A stretch of DNA of 64,000 bases from NCBI RefSeq assembly GCF_900447535.1, contig NZ_UFXX01000001.1, positions 2,356,001 through 2,420,000 on the forward strand, written 5' to 3'. This DNA is from Dermacoccus nishinomiyaensis. Its GTDB lineage: Bacteria > Actinomycetota > Actinomycetes > Actinomycetales > Dermatophilaceae. Each line of letters starts with the position of its first letter. The first letter of the stretch is position 1. Shown in pieces: positions 3,464 to 46,470 of the stretch. The position numbers and the translations under genes are program-made. Below the pieces are notes generated by a model. The model had not been told where the DNA came from, searched no databases, and worked only from the letters and a program-made list of their open reading frames with translations.

Positions 3464-4426
3464 GTGAATCCTCTCGCCGTCCTCGGCATCGACGACCTCG
3501 CCGAACAGCTCTACCGCCAGGTGCTGCGTGACCAGGCGCGACCGTTCGGTGTGTACGCCTCGCGGCTCAACACGCCCGTCGGTGACGTCGAGGCAGCGGC
3601 TGAACAGTTGCGCGCGCTGCGTCTCGTGCGCATCACCGAGGACGGTCGTCCCTCCGCCGATCATCCGCGCGCCGGGCTCGAACGCGTCCTGTCGGCCGAG
3701 GAGGCGCGTCTCGCCGAGCGACGCCGCGACCTCGCCCGCCTGCGCGACGCCATCGATGGTTTCGCAGGCGACCACCGTGCGGGCCAGGAGCAGGCCGACC
3801 CCGCCGAGGCGGGTCGCGAGTACGTCGAGATCGACGGGCTCGGTGACGTCATGGAGCACCTGGCGGCATCGACCTCGGGCCCGATCCGGTTCACGCACAC
3901 CGACGCGCTCGCCGTCAGCGCCGGGGAGCAGCCGGTGCTCGCGCGCCTCGTCGCCGACGGGCGCCTGCTGCGTGGCCTGCACGAGTTCGACGCCGCGAGC
4001 ACGCGCAGCCTCGACGTCGTCGAGTGGGCGAACCTGGGCGAGGAGCAGCGCCTCGCGACGCACATCCCGAACGAGTTCGTCTGCTATGGAACGGATGCCG
4101 TCATCGCCAACACCGATTGGGGCGGCGAGGGTGGGCGGTACGTCGTGCTGCGTGACGCCGTCGTCGTGCGTGCGTTCGTCGAATTGTTCGACCGGATGTG
4201 GGCGGCCGCCTCCGGCGTCGACGACGGCGCGGAACCGACGTCGGAGCGTCTCGTCGAACTCATGCAGGCCGGGTTGAAGGACGAGGCGATCGCGCGGGCG
4301 CTCGGTGTCAGCCTGCGGACGGTGCGACGCCGCGTCGCGGCGCTCATGGAGGAGTGCGGTGTCGAGACGCGCTTCCAGCTCGCGGTGAAGCTCACCGAAC
4401 GTGGCCTCACCGGCTTCGAGGGCTGA
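3464..4426 (+). CDS. TrmB-like/LuxR-type transcriptional regulator
   Basis: A 320-residue protein with two DNA-binding-type segments. Residues about 1-60 resemble a TrmB-like winged helix ([20 protein letters not shown]) followed by a charged helix. The C-terminus, about 262-315, is a LuxR/GerE-type HTH ([18 protein letters not shown]). The middle is a probable ligand or effector domain of unknown specificity. It starts with GTG behind a -10 box and is probably leaderless. The gene at 13509-14687 has the same architecture. Its target is unknown; its nearest downstream neighbour is purA. Confidence 0.75.
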
Positions 4427-23812: not shown

Positions 23813-26080
23813 TCAGCGCTGGGCGGGGTCCCAGTGGCGGAACATCGCGGCCTTGGCGGCGTCCACGCTCGTGAACCACACCTCGGCCTCGGTCTGCTCG
23901 TAGCTCGGGCTGTCGGGCGTGTGGAACAGCATCGTGTCCGCGTTGCCCTTGATCGTGTACGCCGGCGACGGCGCCGAACCATCCTCGTTCGGCTCGGCCG
24001 AGCCAGGACCGAACGGACCGTCAGCCACCTCGGCAGCCGAGACCTCAGCCGCCGTGGGAGCAGCCTGCAACGGCGAACCGGCGCCCTGCGGCGACTGCCC
24101 CGACTCGCTCGATGAAGCCGTGTCGTGAGCCAGCTCGTCGGACGTGAAGTCCTGCAGTGGCTGAGCGGCGTCGTCGGTGCGGACGTCGGCCTCGACCGCC
24201 GTCTGCGAGGCGCTCGCGGCATCTTCGGACGCCGGCGGCTGCGCCAGCGTCGTCGTGGCGGCGTTCGACGCAGCGCCCGTCGTCGACGTGGACGGGTCGG
24301 CGACGGGCTCGCTCACACCGACACCGGCCGACTCCGCAGGCGCTGCGGCCGCGTCGGTCGTCGACGTGGACGGGTCGGCGACGGGCTCGCTCACACCGAC
24401 ACCGGCCGACTCCGCAGGCGCTGCGGCCGCGCCGGTCGTCGCCGGAGCGAACTGGTCAAGCTGGTCCAGCGGAAGCGGCTCGGTGCCCCAGTCGTCGCCG
24501 CCCGAGGGCTTCGGCGCAGCAGGGGTCGTGGCGGGTGCCGACGCGGCGGCGTCCTGCGCTCCCGAGCCCGCGTGCTTGGACTGCGTCTGCGTCGCGGTCG
24601 AGTCGGCTTCCGCGGAACGGTCCGACGCGTCGGTCGCCGTGTCGTCCGACGAGCGGCCCGACGCCATCGCGGCAGCGGCGGCCGCCCCTCCCGCGACACC
24701 GGCCGCAACCGCAGCACCGGACGTGCCGTGGTCGGTGGTGTCAGCGGCCTGTTCGGACGGGCGTGTGGCGGCGTCAGTCGTCGTGTCGTTCGTGCTCGTC
24801 GACGCGGCCTGAGTCGACGTCGAGTCCGCCGCCGGGGTGGATGCTGCTTCGGCAGCGGCCTTCTCGCCGTCAGCTTCGGGAGCAGCCGGGGTGCTCGGGG
24901 TCGAGTCAGCAGCGGTGGACGCGGCCGCAGGGGCAGCCTTCTCGTCCGTCGCTGCGGGCGCTGCCGGGGCGAGCGAGTCGAGCTGGTCGAGCGGCAGCGG
25001 CTCCGTTCCCCAGTCATCGCCACCCGACGACGCCGGTGCGGGTGTCGGGGCCGCGGCAGGTTGGCTCGTCGCCGTGTCCTGGGCCGGCGCGGGGGTCTCG
25101 GCCTGGGCCGGATCGCTTGCCGGGGCAGCTGCCTGCGGCTGCGCAGCGGGGGCGGGAGCGGAGTCGTCGAGAGCCGGGGGAGCAGCGTCCCAGTCGTCGC
25201 CACCGGAGGCGGCGGGTGCGGCTTGCGGTGCCTGGGTGGCTTCGGGTGTCTGTTGCGGCTGCGCGGCCGGAGCCGAGTCGTCGAGTGCGGGCGGCGGGGC
25301 GTCCCAGTCGTCGCCGCCGGAGGTGGCGGGTGCGGCTTGCGGTGCCTGTGTGGCTTCGGGGGTCTGCTGCGGCTGGGCGGCCGGAGCCGAGTCGTCGAGT
25401 GCGGGCGGCGGGGCGTCCCAGTCGTCACCACCGGACGCGGCAGGCGCAGCGGCGGCAGGGGCGGAGTCGTCCAGAGCGGGGGCGGGGGCGTCCCAGTCGT
25501 CGCTGCCGGATGCGGCGGGCGCGGCGGGCGCAGCCTGAGCCGGCGCGGCCGGGGCAGCGGTCGCGTCGAGAGCCGGAGCGGGGGCATCCCAGTCGTCGCC
25601 ACTCGATGCGGCGGGCGCGGCGGGCGTCTCAGGAGCAGGAGCCGGGGCGGCATCCCAGTCGTCGGCCGCTGCCGCCGCAGCGCCACCGGCAGACGCCGCA
25701 GCACCGGCCGCGGCAGCCTTCTGGCCGTTGGACGGCGCGTTCTTCGGCGCGGGAGCCTCCGCCTTCGCGGGCGCGTCCTGGGCGGCCGGCTGCTGCTTGG
25801 CCGTCTCGTTCTTCGGTGCGCCGGTCTTCACCTCGTCGGCCGTCTTCGCGGCACCCTTCGCAGGCTTCTCCTCGAGTTCGGAGGTGGCCGCGGCCTTCGC
25901 GTCAGGCGTCTCGACGCTCTCGTCGACGGAGTCGTCACGGCCGATCTTGTTCTTGCCGTTCACTCCGTGGATGCCGACCGAACCCGGGCGCTTCGGCGCG
26001 CCCTTCTTCGGGTCGCGCATGAGCAGGTAGGCGATCAGAGCCAACAGCAGGATGACGTTTTCGAGGATGAACCACTTCAC
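23813..26080 (-). CDS. Membrane-anchored Ala/Pro/Asp-rich repeat protein with C-terminal sunset-type domain
   Basis: A 755-residue protein in three parts. Residues 5-21 are one hydrophobic segment, followed by a basic stretch (KKGAPKR), so it is probably a single-span membrane protein. About residues 30-700 are low-complexity Ala/Pro/Ser/Asp/Thr with eight recurring DDW motifs: six DDWDA-type and two DDWGTEPLPLDQLD. The last 50 residues form a small folded domain (YTIKGNADTMLFHTPDSPSY, then EVWFTSVDAAKAAMF), like the sunset domain of ArfC-type accessory proteins. GTG 26080 starts it. Repeats are visible at DNA level. Function unknown; a scaffold or long membrane stalk is an inference. Confidence 0.75.
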   Translation of the reverse strand: MKWFILENVILLLALIAYLLMRDPKKGAPKRPGSVGIHGVNGKNKIGRDDSVDESVETPDAKAAATSELEEKPAKGAAKTADEVKTGAPKNETAKQQPAAQDAPAKAEAPAPKNAPSNGQKAAAAGAAASAGGAAAAAADDWDAAPAPAPETPAAPAASSGDDWDAPAPALDATAAPAAPAQAAPAAPAASGSDDWDAPAPALDDSAPAAAAPAASGGDDWDAPPPALDDSAPAAQPQQTPEATQAPQAAPATSGGDDWDAPPPALDDSAPAAQPQQTPEATQAPQAAPAASGGDDWDAAPPALDDSAPAPAAQPQAAAPASDPAQAETPAPAQDTATSQPAAAPTPAPASSGGDDWGTEPLPLDQLDSLAPAAPAATDEKAAPAAASTAADSTPSTPAAPEADGEKAAAEAASTPAADSTSTQAASTSTNDTTTDAATRPSEQAADTTDHGTSGAAVAAGVAGGAAAAAAMASGRSSDDTATDASDRSAEADSTATQTQSKHAGSGAQDAAASAPATTPAAPKPSGGDDWGTEPLPLDQLDQFAPATTGAAAAPAESAGVGVSEPVADPSTSTTDAAAAPAESAGVGVSEPVADPSTSTTGAASNAATTTLAQPPASEDAASASQTAVEADVRTDDAAQPLQDFTSDELAHDTASSSESGQSPQGAGSPLQAAPTAAEVSAAEVADGPFGPGSAEPNEDGSAPSPAYTIKGNADTMLFHTPDSPSYEQTEAEVWFTSVDAAKAAMFRHWDPAQR
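24279..24431. repeat. 78-bp direct repeat inside the sunset-domain gene
   Basis: Copies at 24279-24353 and 24357-24431, nearly identical over 75 bp. The 78-bp period is 26 codons, so the repeat is in frame (ESAGVGVSEPVADPSTSTT). Confidence 0.75.
25211..25438. repeat. 114-bp direct repeat inside the sunset-domain gene
   Basis: Copies at 25211-25324 and 25325-25438 with a few differences. The 114-bp period is 38 codons, each holding one GGDDWDAPPPALDDSAP unit. It indicates growth of the stalk by in-frame duplication. Confidence 0.75.
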
Positions 26081-43014: not shown

Positions 43015-43929
43015 TCAGAACGCCGCCGATGCCTCGCCGCGCTTGACGTCGGCGCGCCATCGCGTGAGGAACGCGGCACCGGCGGCGTCGTTCGTCAGCG
43101 CCGGATCGGGCGTGACCTCGACGGGGTAGGTGCGCTCGAGCAGGCCGTCGGCGGGGCGAACGTCGCCGTGGCGCACGACGAATCCACGCTCGTGCAGACG
43201 ATCAGCCATCGCGTAGTCGCTGCGTGAATCGCCGAGGGTGCGCCACTCGCGCGGGGTGATGCCGCGCGTGGCGAGCAGTTCGATCGCCTTGTCGGCACCG
43301 ACGTTCTTGCCGACCCCAACGTGCTCGATGTCGGTCGAGATGATCGTCGGATCGATGCGGACGGCGATGTCTTCACTGCCGTTGAGCGCTTCTCGCTCAC
43401 CCCAGACGACGCCGATCTCCTGCTCGGCGAGGTAATCCCAAACCCGCTGATCGAACGCGTGCTGACGTTCGCGGTAGACGTCGAGGTCGATGCCATGGTG
43501 CGCCTCGAGGCTCACCATGGCCTTCTTCGTGTCGTCGAAGAACATGGCGTCGTCGAAATCGGGGGCGATACTGCGGCAGTACTCGACGAGCCCCGTCGGA
43601 ACGCGCAGGGCGTCGTCGACGCGCAGGTCGACGCCCGCGTTGCGCAGGTGCGCGCGCGTCGGGGTGAACCACGTCGCGCCCTTCTCACAGACGGCGATGA
43701 CGGGCGCGTCGTCGGGTAGTCCGGCGTCGAGCAGGGCGGGCATGACGGTGGCTGCGACGAAGTCGTCGGAGCGACCCGTGTTGAACACGATGGGGACGCC
43801 CGCCCGCGCCATCGCGACGAGATCCGTGGCGATCGACGGGATCGCGACGGTGCGCGTCACCGGGCTCGCGATGGGTCCGTCGACGTCGAGGAGGAGGCCG
43901 TACAGGGGTTCGCGCAGCTGGCTCGTCAT
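43015..43929 (-). CDS. HAD-superfamily hydrolase (Cof-like)
   Basis: 304 residues. Motif I is LLLDVDGPI, motif II NTGRSD, motif III region GKNVGADKAIELL with Lys, and motif IV TLGDSRSDYAM, all of the C2-cap Cof/sucrose-phosphatase-like HAD type. Substrate, probably a sugar phosphate, is unknown. ATG 43929; GACACT six bases upstream on the minus strand is a weak leaderless -10. It is divergent from scoA. Confidence 0.8.
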   Translation of the reverse strand: MTSQLREPLYGLLLDVDGPIASPVTRTVAIPSIATDLVAMARAGVPIVFNTGRSDDFVAATVMPALLDAGLPDDAPVIAVCEKGATWFTPTRAHLRNAGVDLRVDDALRVPTGLVEYCRSIAPDFDDAMFFDDTKKAMVSLEAHHGIDLDVYRERQHAFDQRVWDYLAEQEIGVVWGEREALNGSEDIAVRIDPTIISTDIEHVGVGKNVGADKAIELLATRGITPREWRTLGDSRSDYAMADRLHERGFVVRHGDVRPADGLLERTYPVEVTPDPALTNDAAGAAFLTRWRADVKRGEASAAF

Positions 43930-43983
43930 GCTCGAAGTGTCGTCGCGCGCGGGGCCGGTCGCAAGCCGCACCCCCACGCCTCG

Positions 43984-44030
43984 GTTAAGGATGATTAACT
44001 GAAGTCGGCATGGTGTGAGGTGCATCTCAC
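43984..44030. promoter_or_regulatory. Two inverted repeats upstream of scoA
   Basis: GTTAA-N6-TTAAC (43984-43999) and GTGAG-N6-CTCAC (44015-44030), both with 6-bp centres, in the 122-bp gap between the HAD gene and scoA. They could be operators for the ketone-body genes; no regulator gene is adjacent. Confidence 0.35.
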
Positions 44031-44051
44031 GAAGCGCGATCTGGAGGGTTC

Positions 44052-44831
44052 ATGGACAAGGTGGTGGCCTCGGCTGCGGAAGCGGTCGCCGACATCGGTG
44101 ACGGTTCGTCGCTCGCCGTCGGAGGGTTCGGGCTGTGCGGCATCCCGAGCGTCCTCATCGCGGCGCTGCACGAGCACGGCGCGAAGGATCTTGACGTCGT
44201 CTCCAACAACTGTGGGGTCGACGACTGGGGTCTCGGCGTGCTGCTGCGCGACGGGCGCCTGCGCACCGTCATCGCGTCGTACGTGGGCGAGAACAAGGAA
44301 TTCGCGCGCCAGTACCTCGAGGGCGAGCTGGAGGTGCACCTGACGCCGCAGGGCACCCTCGCGGAGAAGTTGCGCGCCGGTGGCGCAGGCATCCCCGCGT
44401 TCTACACGGCGACGGGTGTGGGTACGCAGGTCGCCGACGGCGGCATGCCGTGGAAGTACGCGGCCGACGGCTCGGTAGAGAAGGCCTCACCGGCGAAGGA
44501 GACGCGCGTCTACGGTGACGGCGACGACGCGAAGCCGTACGTGCTCGAGGAGGCCATCACGACGGACTTCGCACTCGTGCGTGCGGCGAAGGGTGATCGT
44601 CACGGCAACCTGGTGTTCAACCTGTCGGCGCGCAACTTCAACCCGCTGTGTGCGATGGCGGGCCGCGTCGTCGTCGCGGAGGTGGAGCAGCTCGTCGAGC
44701 CGGGCGACATCCACCCCGACGACGTCCACCTGCCCGGCATCTACGTGCAGCGAGTCGTGGAATTGACGTCCGAACAGGCTGACGACAAGCGGATCGAGAA
44801 GCGCACGACCCGCGAGACGGAGGGTGACTGA
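44052..44831 (+). CDS. scoA: 3-oxoacid CoA-transferase subunit A
   Basis: 259 residues. Alpha subunit of succinyl-CoA:3-ketoacid CoA-transferase: GGFGLCGIPSVLI, VSNNCGVDDWGLG, LTPQGTLAEKLRAGGAGIPAFYT and NLSARNFNPLCAMAG are family signatures. Moves CoA between succinyl-CoA and acetoacetate with ScoB. ATG 44052 is preceded by GGAGGG. The last 11 codons ([11 protein letters not shown]) are repeated at the end of each of five following mini-ORFs. Confidence 0.95.
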   Translation: MDKVVASAAEAVADIGDGSSLAVGGFGLCGIPSVLIAALHEHGAKDLDVVSNNCGVDDWGLGVLLRDGRLRTVIASYVGENKEFARQYLEGELEVHLTPQGTLAEKLRAGGAGIPAFYTATGVGTQVADGGMPWKYAADGSVEKASPAKETRVYGDGDDAKPYVLEEAITTDFALVRAAKGDRHGNLVFNLSARNFNPLCAMAGRVVVAEVEQLVEPGDIHPDDVHLPGIYVQRVVELTSEQADDKRIEKRTTRETEGD

Positions 44832-44832
44832 G

Positions 44833-44913
44833 ATGGATGGGCGACTGTTCGGGGGGCGTGCGTTCGACCGAGAGTGCGAGAAGCGCACGACCCGCGAGAC
44901 GGAGGGTGACTGA
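44833..44913 (+). CDS. Tandem 26-codon mini-ORF, copy 1
   Basis: ATG to TGA in 81 nt: begins [15 protein letters not shown] and ends [11 protein letters not shown], identical to the ScoA C-terminus. GGAGG lies 8 nt before its ATG, inside the scoA end; TGA-g-ATG spacing favours re-initiation. It is unknown whether the peptide has a function or merely results from repeat expansion. One Cys per copy. Confidence 0.45.
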   Translation: MDGRLFGGRAFDRECEKRTTRETEGD

Positions 44914-44914
44914 G

Positions 44915-44995
44915 ATGGATGGGCGACTGTTCGGGGGGCGTGCGTTCGACCGAGAGTGCGAGAAGCGCACGACCCGCGAGACGGAGGGTGACTGA
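44915..44995 (+). CDS. Tandem 26-codon mini-ORF, copy 2
   Basis: Identical in DNA and predicted peptide to copy 1, with its own GGAGG 8 nt upstream. Confidence 0.45.
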   Translation: MDGRLFGGRAFDRECEKRTTRETEGD

Positions 44996-44996
44996 G

Positions 44997-45077
44997 ATGG
45001 ATGGGCGACTGTTCGGGGGGCGTGCGTTCGACCGAGAGTGCGAGAAGCGCACGACCCGCGAGACGGAGGGTGACTGA
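44997..45077 (+). CDS. Tandem 26-codon mini-ORF, copy 3
   Basis: Identical to copy 1; same TGA-g-ATG junctions on both sides. Confidence 0.45.
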   Translation: MDGRLFGGRAFDRECEKRTTRETEGD

Positions 45078-45078
45078 G

Positions 45079-45159
45079 ATGGATGGGCGACTGTTCGGGG
45101 GGCGTGCGTTCGACCGAGAGTGCGAGAAGCGCACGACCCGCGAGACGGAGGGTGACTGA
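45079..45159 (+). CDS. Tandem 26-codon mini-ORF, copy 4
   Basis: Identical to copy 1; same junctions. Confidence 0.45.
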
Positions 45160-45160
45160 G

Positions 45161-45241
45161 ATGGATGGGCGACTGTTCGGGGGGCGTGCGTTCGACCGAG
45201 AGTGCGAGAAGCGCACGACCCGCGAGACGGAGGGTGACTGA
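45161..45241 (+). CDS. Tandem 26-codon mini-ORF, copy 5
   Basis: Identical to copy 1. Its stop is followed by one base (C instead of G) and the scoB ATG, so it supplies scoB's GGAGG ribosome-binding site. Confidence 0.45.
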
Positions 45242-45242
45242 C

Positions 45243-45887
45243 ATGGCCTGGACGCGAGAGCAGATGGCGGCGCGTGCTGCGGCGGAGCTGCAGGACGGCG
45301 ATTACGTCAACCTGGGCATCGGGTTGCCGACGCTCGTGCCGAACTACGTGGCGGACGACGTCGAACTCGTCCTGCAGTCGGAGAACGGGCTGCTGGGGGT
45401 AGGCGCGTATCCGAGCGATGGCGCCGTCGATCCCGACCTCATCAATGCGGGCAAGGAGACGGTGACGCTGCGGCGCGGCGCCTCGACGTTCGACTCGGCG
45501 ATGTCGTTCGGCATGATCCGGGGCGGCAAGGTCGATGCGGCCATCCTCGGTGCCATGCAGGTGTCGGCGGACGGTGACATCGCGAACTGGATGATCCCGG
45601 GCAAGATGGTCAAGGGCATGGGTGGCGCGATGGATCTCGTGCACGGCGCGAAGAAGGTCATCGTCCTCATGGAGCACTGCGCGAAGGACGGATCGCCCAA
45701 GATCCTGCCCGCGTGCACCCTGCCGATCACGGGGCTCGGTGTCGTCGAGCGCACCATCACCGACCTCGCCGTCATCGACGTGACGCCCGACGGTCTCGTC
45801 GTCACCGAACTCGCACCGGACGTGACGTTCGCCGAGCTCGAGTCGAGGACGGGCGTGCCGCTGACGGCGGCGGCATCGGTGGGCTGA
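45243..45887 (+). CDS. scoB: 3-oxoacid CoA-transferase subunit B
   Basis: 214 residues. Beta subunit carrying the catalytic Glu at residue 47 (LQSENGLLG), which forms the glutamyl-CoA intermediate. Other signatures: [30 protein letters not shown] and [21 protein letters not shown]. Translation starts one base after the fifth mini-ORF stop. The operon ends at the hairpin at 45940-45980. Confidence 0.95.
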
Positions 45888-45939
45888 GGCAGCCATTCGG
45901 CCGCCGTGGGTGATCGACGGCGATCCGGGCGCGCGGCGT

Positions 45940-45980
45940 GAGCTCGGGGCGTCGTCGGAGACCGATGACACCCCGAGCTC
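45940..45980. terminator. scoAB terminator hairpin
   Basis: 19-bp stem (45940-45958 with 45962-45980) with one mismatch and one G-T pair, 3-nt loop, 52 bp after scoB. Confidence 0.7.
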
Positions 45981-46110
45981 CAGCGCGGCCTCGGGACGAC
46001 GCGGCGATCGATGGCGACGCGGGGGATGCCCAGTGTGACCTCGGGCGGCCCTGGGGGTGTTCCATAGTGCGACAACGCAGTAGCGTGGCAGTGAGGAAAG
46101 GTGGTGCGTC

Positions 46111-46470
46111 ATGGGGACGTGGAACTACGTGGTGAACGAGAAGTTCACCGAGGAGTACGGCGAGGGTTCGCTCAGCCGGTTCGCGGACATGCTCGGCGAC
46201 GTCGCCGGGCGAGTGCGGCCGGGCGATCGTGACGGCGCGATGGAACTGCTCGACGCAGGCTTCGAGCGTCTGGGCATGAACATGCCGAAGCTCACGCGTG
46301 ACCAGCTCGCCGAGAACCTGACGATGGCGGAGCACAGCACTATCGTCATCAGCGATGACTCCGGTCGCATCATCGCCGAGCACGCGCTGCCGGGTGCGGT
46401 GACCAGCACCGACGAGGAGCGGCGCACGCACGTCGAGCCCGAGGACGGCGACCGCCCGGCCTACAGCTGA
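46111..46470 (+). CDS. Small soluble protein, unknown function
   Basis: 119 residues, mixed charge, no membrane segment or signal. Begins MGTWNYVVNEKFTEEYGEGS, with a helical middle (MELLDAGFERLGMNMPKLTRDQLAENL). I recognise no domain. ATG 46111 is preceded by GGAAAGGTGG. It stands alone between the scoAB terminator and tRNA-Lys. Confidence 0.6.
   Translation: MGTWNYVVNEKFTEEYGEGSLSRFADMLGDVAGRVRPGDRDGAMELLDAGFERLGMNMPKLTRDQLAENLTMAEHSTIVISDDSGRIIAEHALPGAVTSTDEERRTHVEPEDGDRPAYS

Follow-up and report, generated by a model that had tools for sequence, protein, structure and literature searches.

The window analyzed here is a stretch of 64,000 nucleotides from Dermacoccus nishinomiyaensis that holds scoA and scoB on its plus strand. 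The product of scoA (44052–44831) is the 259-residue subunit A of 3-oxoacid CoA-transferase (TIGR02429 of NCBIfam, 234.5 bits against a cut-off of 128.5), and that of scoB (45243–45887) is the 214-residue subunit B (TIGR02428, 322 bits against a cut-off of 243.55). The two genes lie 411 nt apart, and the gap is occupied by five identical 82-nt tandem units (44833–45241), each of which is a single 26-codon ORF. By translation, mini-ORFs 1 to 5 span 44833–44913, 44915–44995, 44997–45077, 45079–45159, and 45161–45241 on the plus strand, and the TGA of the last is one nucleotide from the scoB ATG. A unit consists of a 45-nt insert (44833–44877 in unit 1, displaced by +82, +164, +246, and +328 in units 2–5), a 36-nt copy of the scoA tail, and one spacer base. 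The tail, which lies at 44796–44831 in scoA itself, encodes the last 11 residues and the TGA stop and includes a GGAGGG sequence. With that of scoA counted, the array has six tails, spaced 82 nt apart, and five inserts. A single base separates stop from ATG (+1 spacing) at all six junctions; the relay junction reads TGA-G-ATG, and the base before the scoB ATG at 45243 is C 45242.

The original prediction, which was made from the letters of the window, had described five identical 26-codon ORFs with one-base stop-to-start spacing up to and including scoB, whose peptides end in the same 11 residues as ScoA. Translation reproduced the ORFs exactly, and the spacing and the common C-terminus were found as described. 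It had also placed GGAGG 8 nt upstream of each start; this distance holds at every ATG for the end of GGAGGG, whereas GGAGG itself ends 9 nt away.

Tandem Repeats Finder reported a period of 82, 5.5 copies, 99% matches, and a score of 897. This was the top repeat score in the 864 kb scanned (the window and 40 stretches of 20 kb, 28% of the 3.1-Mb genome), and the array was the only one there with a period of at least 60, at least three copies, and at least 95% matches. Copies of an ORF's own last 27 nt (at least 20 of 27 nt matching, at most 400 nt downstream of the ORF end) followed 6 of 1837 coding-like ORF ends in the same sample. These ends gave 10 hits, five of which belong to the scoA–scoB array; one other copy was perfect (minus strand, within a 78-bp repeat at 24273–24441), and the remaining four matched at 20–22 of 27 nt. 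Further long-period repeats of the window, at 24273–24441 and 25151–25664, have periods of 78, 114, 96, and 75 bp. All are multiples of three, as expected for repeats within a reading frame, and the 82-bp array differs from them in this respect. Sequence, profile, and RNA-model searches found no second locus of the unit in the window genome; a weak match at C1:185050 was rejected because it covered the scoA part of the query alone, and it was taken as chance.

Distribution and relatedness of the units

The family to which the window genome belongs, which includes Metallococcus, Luteipulveratus, and Knoellia, was surveyed with one genome per species (186 genomes). A ScoA search matched 173 of them at 1e-60 or better, and junctions were read at 150 places in 149 genomes (one genome twice); 148 were judged, as those of G135 and G087 run off their contigs. 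A mini-ORF profile (E 1e-4) and an RNA model of the unit were searched against all 186 genomes, and both found full units in five genomes of four genera, solely between scoA and scoB. The bearers are the window genome (G000, five copies), a member of the same genus (G001, two), Metallococcus carri (G005, two), an Intrasporangium MAG (G088, one), and G010 (one). Because both models were built from these five, their own matches arise by construction, and the result is the absence of others. Under strict filters, with which weak copies could be missed, the RNA model scored the units at 85–122 bits and the next best match at 30.7 bits. The latter (G007:C4) lies inside an unrelated ORF and was rejected, as was a weak match in G018, which is not at a scoA junction and was taken as chance. 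One part of the refutation named by the original prediction was loss or frame disruption of the unit in close relatives. The congener G001 speaks against that part, as the unit is present there with its frame intact; most other genera lack it.

Close adjacency of scoA and scoB is the rule in the family. An in-frame scoB start (ATG, GTG, or TTG) lies within 5 nt of the scoA stop in 138 of the 148 judged junctions; five of the rest carry units, and five have gaps of 6–18 nt. Three such gaps (G124, 11 nt; G074, 6 nt; G020, 18 nt) have no complete relay of ORFs. In G109 (L210) and G007 (L224), 13-nt gaps are bridged by two- and three-codon ORFs, ATGGTCTGA and ATGGAGATCTGA. Forty-six more named junctions were read outside or beyond the family set, and 45 of them are close; the other, in Nocardioides caldifontis (L063, about 3765–3808), has a 14-codon ORF that bridges the genes with GTGA and ATGA overlaps and without a tail copy. 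Shuffled gaps gave a complete chain in 27% (G007), 24% (G109), and 85% (L063) of cases, so these short bridging ORFs are uninformative and could be chance.

At higher ranks, thin samples of 394 genomes from the class and of 396 and 297 from the order, some of whose members belong to the family, gave no further full unit among the matches listed. The profile had matches at E up to 1 in 283 of 396 genomes of the order sample. Among the matches listed for the family, class, and order, 30 non-unit loci were inspected; 29 show an ordinary ScoA-type tail, the exception being L269. The same tail accounts for 13 of 20 weaker RNA-model matches inspected. Some of the loci read have peculiarities of their own. 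One other family of the order supplied loci L249, L250, L253–L262, and L270–L273, whose ScoA has EKRTVREA as its C-terminus. Nearly all of these loci place the scoB start about 9–12 nt past the scoA stop and in frame with scoA, which means that one readthrough event would join both subunits into a single protein. In Arthrobacter and relatives (L068, L071, L073, L079, L080, L083, L085, L090, L091, and L093), ScoB appears to be longer at its N-terminus by roughly 30 residues, with a start at the scoA stop or close to it. In Streptomyces sp. A012304 (L070, 3001–3144), the scoA frame stops after 47 codons with the rest of the gene present, which indicates a frameshift or a sequencing error.

On a tree built from part of ScoB, the bearers are scattered among non-bearers, and the unit is thus patchy. 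G000, G001, and G005 fall into one 14-row clade together with non-bearers (support 0.87), G010 is closest to two congeners without the unit (G206 and G207), and G088 lies in a 31-row clade with Terrabacter, Terracoccus, and Humibacillus. In G087, a congener of G088, the 15 nt visible past scoA lead straight to an ATG.

The inserts are related across genera. In comparisons against mononucleotide shuffles (ten pairs tested), similarity was significant for G001–G005 and G005–G088 (p < 0.0005), G000–G005 and G088–G010 (p = 0.0005), G005–G010 (0.01), G000–G088 (0.013), and G001–G088 (0.02), and not significant for G000–G010 (0.08) and G001–G010 (0.26). The simplest reading of these sequences is that the units are one element of shared origin, which would often have been lost or passed sideways. 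Part of the similarity sits in a segment complementary to the tail, and this leaves room for recurrent independent formation. When the 149 scoA tails were scored against the inverted complement of each insert, the number outscoring the bearer's own tail was 0 (G010), 2 (G088), 8 (G001), 11 (G000), and 106 (G005), a spread that does not settle the matter of independent origins. Two candidate sources of the insert were unsupported: the start of scoB, as in a junction-spanning duplication (p = 0.10, 0.12, 0.19, 0.88, and 0.79 in the five genomes), and the part of scoA just 5′ of the tail (p = 0.15 to 0.93).

G010 appears to be the best and clearest example of an insertion event. The scoA genes of its congeners end in IERITTRPRP...QTQEA and IERTTTRQRP...ESKEA, and scoB follows directly. 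In G010, an ending of this type closes the mini-ORF (IERTTTRPHEQKQEA), while scoA itself ends in IERVTVRTAGSGEQKEV; the tail copy scores 23 against the tail of G206 and 10 against that of its own scoA. The unit tails also differ between bearers (ERRTVR in G088 and ERTTTR in G010, against EKRT(T/V)R elsewhere). The features of G010 are compatible with an 83-nt element family specific for the scoA 3′ end in this family of Actinomycetes, which would move or be exchanged between lineages, split off the tail, and carry a covarying hairpin across stop and start. An insertion of this kind would give scoA a new end and make its former tail the terminal part of a coupled mini-ORF. We put this forward only tentatively, as an account that is possible but rather less probable than not; if true, operon repeats that preserve coupling would be known from a second lineage, in addition to the mycobacterial MIRUs discussed below.

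Register and possible RNA pairing across the junction

The tails are spaced 83 nt apart in G001, G005, G088, and G010, and 82 nt apart in G000. On the scoA side, four of the five bearers have a 4-nt overlap (GTGA/ATGA), and the window has the +1 spacing; G010 has an extra in-frame GTG at +2. The scoB-side spacings of G000, G001, G005, G088, and G010 are +1, +1, −1, +3, and +1, with none at −4. For the relay to return to the frame of the tail, units joined by a 4-nt overlap must have a length of 2 modulo 3, and units joined at +1 a length of 1 modulo 3. The unit length thus follows the geometry of the junction, and the ORF relay stays open despite diverged inserts. This match of length and overlap is read directly from the sequences of five genomes in four genera, and no other single argument speaks as strongly for maintained openness.

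The chain of ORFs from scoA to scoB is complete in all five bearers; shuffled gaps yielded one in 0.3, 3.3, 2.5, 2.8, and 4.3% of cases, with the reservation that copies inside an array are not independent. RTGA is the scoA stop context in four of five bearers, or in three of four when counted by lineage, against 11 of the remaining 143 junctions of the family (Fisher p = 3e-4 by genome and 0.003 by lineage). When the observed length and RTGA stop were kept and the inserts shuffled, an open coupled frame arose in 61% (G001), 80% (G005), 86% (G088), 64% (G010), and 3.8% (G000) of cases, so openness alone is weak evidence in the first four. With random lengths, it arose in 20–27% for these four and in 7% for G000.

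We consider that the array is probably a MIRU-like intercistronic repeat that preserves coupling, was amplified in this genome, and relays ribosomes from scoA to scoB. Each unit would be a self-contained relay, with a start on or beside the preceding stop, an insert of about 45 nt, and a tail copy that brings the Shine-Dalgarno sequence, the stop, and the next junction. At the end of scoA, a ribosome would re-initiate at mini-ORF 1, terminate beside mini-ORF 2, and repeat this until scoB, by which ScoB would stay coupled to ScoA across the whole gap. The peptide would be a by-product, and selection would act on openness and register. The unit may have multiplied to five copies recently, for which unequal recombination between tail copies is the simplest route. 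Translation of the units, their coupling to scoB, and the way in which they spread and were amplified are what we infer from features read directly, namely anatomy, recurrence, period, register, relatedness of the inserts, and codon-position pattern. The original prediction had considered an expansion that keeps coupling, and this suggestion gains from the recurrence of the unit in other genera, the open relay, and the matched change of length and overlap.

Published work illustrates the sensitivity of coupling to distance. According to excerpts of one study, a 22-nt gap abolished and a 13-nt gap reduced reinitiation in a Haloferax pair. In three E. coli pairs, a 38-nt gap removed 80–90% or all of it, and subunits of the same complex are overrepresented among close gene pairs (PMC10666635). 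Some observations count against the relay. The strong Shine-Dalgarno sequence before every start means that scoB could initiate independently, the gaps of G124, G074, and G020 have no complete relay, and the scoB starts 9–12 nt past scoA in the other family of the order weaken the premise that adjacency is needed.

The insert may also have an inverted relationship to the tail. Its reverse complement matches the final 70 nt of scoA, with p = 0.017, 0.006, 0.27 (G005), 0.059 (G088), and 0.024 taken singly, and 2e-4 for the five genomes or 0.0024 for four lineages (G001 left out) when combined; no complementarity was found to the remaining scoA sequence at hand. Insert–tail duplexes are stronger than those of shuffles in combination (p = 0.0005 for the upstream tail and 0.001 for the downstream copy) and not significantly so in G001 alone or G010 alone. 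A putative hairpin has its 5′ arm within the scoA tail (44802–44815) and its 3′ arm within the insert (44849–44862), both on the plus strand and repeated every 82 nt. Its arms, which were chosen by eye, pair at 11–12 of 14 positions in each bearer and enclose a loop of 33, 34, 33, 33, and 33 nt in the five genomes. The helix was also scored on the five aligned sequences from which it had been picked, each running from the scoA tail through junction and insert to the tail copy. In the upstream helix, 84.6% of the cells are paired, and both sides have changed in 6 of 13 pairs. Its covariation score is 0.400 against 0.173 in shuffles, none of 500 shuffles reached it, and pairing drops strongly when the arms are slid. 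Pairing is weaker in the downstream helix, with 78.5% of cells paired and changes on both sides in 4 of 13 pairs, and the two helices are not independent because the tail arms are copies of each other. The pairing may be a function, with unfolding by the upstream ribosome, or the trace of an inverted duplication.

If it is a function, the array would be an RNA control element in which tail–insert pairing across stop and start is opened by upstream translation, and copy number would tune ScoB. The near-constant loop, the pairing in every bearer, the covariation, and the strength and confinement of the complementarity are in favor of this, as is the contrast in G010 between the upstream tail, with 12 of 14 positions paired, and the downstream copy, with 7 of 14. 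However, the covariation comes from the same five sequences on which the helix was found, single-sequence folding is unremarkable (z of −0.2 to −1.2), and the Shine-Dalgarno sequence and the start, like the stop, sit in the loop outside the stem. An inverted tail copy at the origin of the unit would yield equal complementarity without function. Rfam gave no match at E up to 1 in 43800–46200. We regard such an element as a rather improbable explanation.

The inverted duplication leads to an alternative of similarly low probability, a neutral minisatellite. In this account, the scoA tail would have been duplicated and a partial copy of it inverted, which yields the order tail, junction, inverted tail, tail, junction. 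The repeat would be under no coupling constraint and would be tolerated because each unit carries its own Shine-Dalgarno sequence. The inverted complementarity fits this account, as do the identical, recent copies. Between the congeners G000 and G001, 11 of the 45 insert sites differ, which by plain comparison of fractions is near the third-position count for scoA and scoB (161 of 459). Against it stand the equal 82–83-nt spacing and related inserts across four genera, the excess of RTGA stops, and the joint change of unit length and overlap.

It is very unlikely that the array serves as a promoter for scoB or that its last unit is a mere N-terminal extension of ScoB. Promoter activity has been described for the MIRU-holding senX3–regX3 intergenic region in excerpts of PMC4213456, and a 240-aa ORF runs into scoB in the window, but a scan for sigma-70-like promoters found no such site in 43900–46200, and in G088 and G010 the unit adds no upstream start to the scoB frame. 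In the window, this frame is open from 45165 (ATG) through the last unit to 45887, and an automatic annotation of ScoB may thus come out 26 residues longer.

Slightly less likely still is the functional small peptide of the original prediction, made in several copies, for example as a mimic of the ScoA C-terminal tail. The ORFs are unbroken in all five bearers, and the start M and the E, T, and R of the tail half are invariant across the five peptides. However, the half common to the units is a copy of scoA, the peptide matches no NCBIfam family, and the insert varies mainly at codon positions 1 and 2. The differences between G000 and G001 at positions 1/2/3 are 4/5/2 over the 15 insert codons (seven codons non-synonymous, start codon included, and one synonymous), 22/23/90 over 245 codons of scoA (36 non-synonymous and 72 synonymous), and 12/21/71 over 214 codons of scoB; the change at positions 1 and 2 of the insert differs from that of scoA at p = 0.002. 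This pattern, together with the copied tail half, makes a conserved peptide unlikely, and the original suggestion is not supported.

Comparison with known systems

Tandem inversion duplications have a direct-inverted-direct order, which the scoA tail arrangement may resemble. The scoA–scoB unit differs from them in that only tens of bases are involved and the inverted part would be partial and diverged.

Termination-reinitiation coupling, as presented in excerpts of PMC6728339 and PMC10666635, has an equal stop/start geometry and likewise concerns subunits of one complex, whereas here it would pass through one to five extra mini-cistrons. The synthetic bicistronic design uses a short leader ORF to deliver ribosomes to the next gene (PMC5995908, in excerpt), as the units may do; the latter are natural, mid-operon, and tandem.

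The closest known system is that of the mycobacterial MIRUs. In M. tuberculosis H37Rv, three 77-bp MIRU copies lie between senX3 and regX3, as the available excerpts describe (PMC4213456; PMC12548453), and the units there measure 77 and 53 bp (PMC4213456). The original prediction knew of no described equivalent, but these MIRUs are a published precedent. Both are tandem units of about 80 bp between two operon genes (82 or 83 nt here), and both carry a small ORF placed for coupling at a 4-nt overlap, which at scoA is seen in four of five bearers and replaced by +1 in the window. In the excerpted part of a review, MIRUs are read as an insertion with minimal impact on expression, and their copy make-up varies between strains. 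The link is by architecture alone. In a control set of 14 genomes, six had a hit, and none of these six is a mycobacterium. The scoA–scoB unit was found at one site and none dispersed among the 186 family genomes, half of it is a copy of the upstream gene's tail, it may form a hairpin with this tail, and its hosts belong to a non-mycobacterial family. Because it lacks the interspersed distribution of MIRUs, we consider it a variant that would work like a MIRU and not a MIRU itself.

Among the open-licence papers listed in literature searches, none describes such units at scoA–scoB; compared with MIRUs, the units are new in their lineage, in having a single site, in the copied tail, and in the hairpin that they may form. 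Related bacteria offer a natural dose series of 0, 1, 2, and 5 units at one site, which lets one ask how far successive termination and reinitiation can hand a ribosome on and whether keeping two subunits coupled decides which operon insertions survive. MIRU-like repeats may extend beyond mycobacteria, and some small ORFs may be relays rather than peptides.
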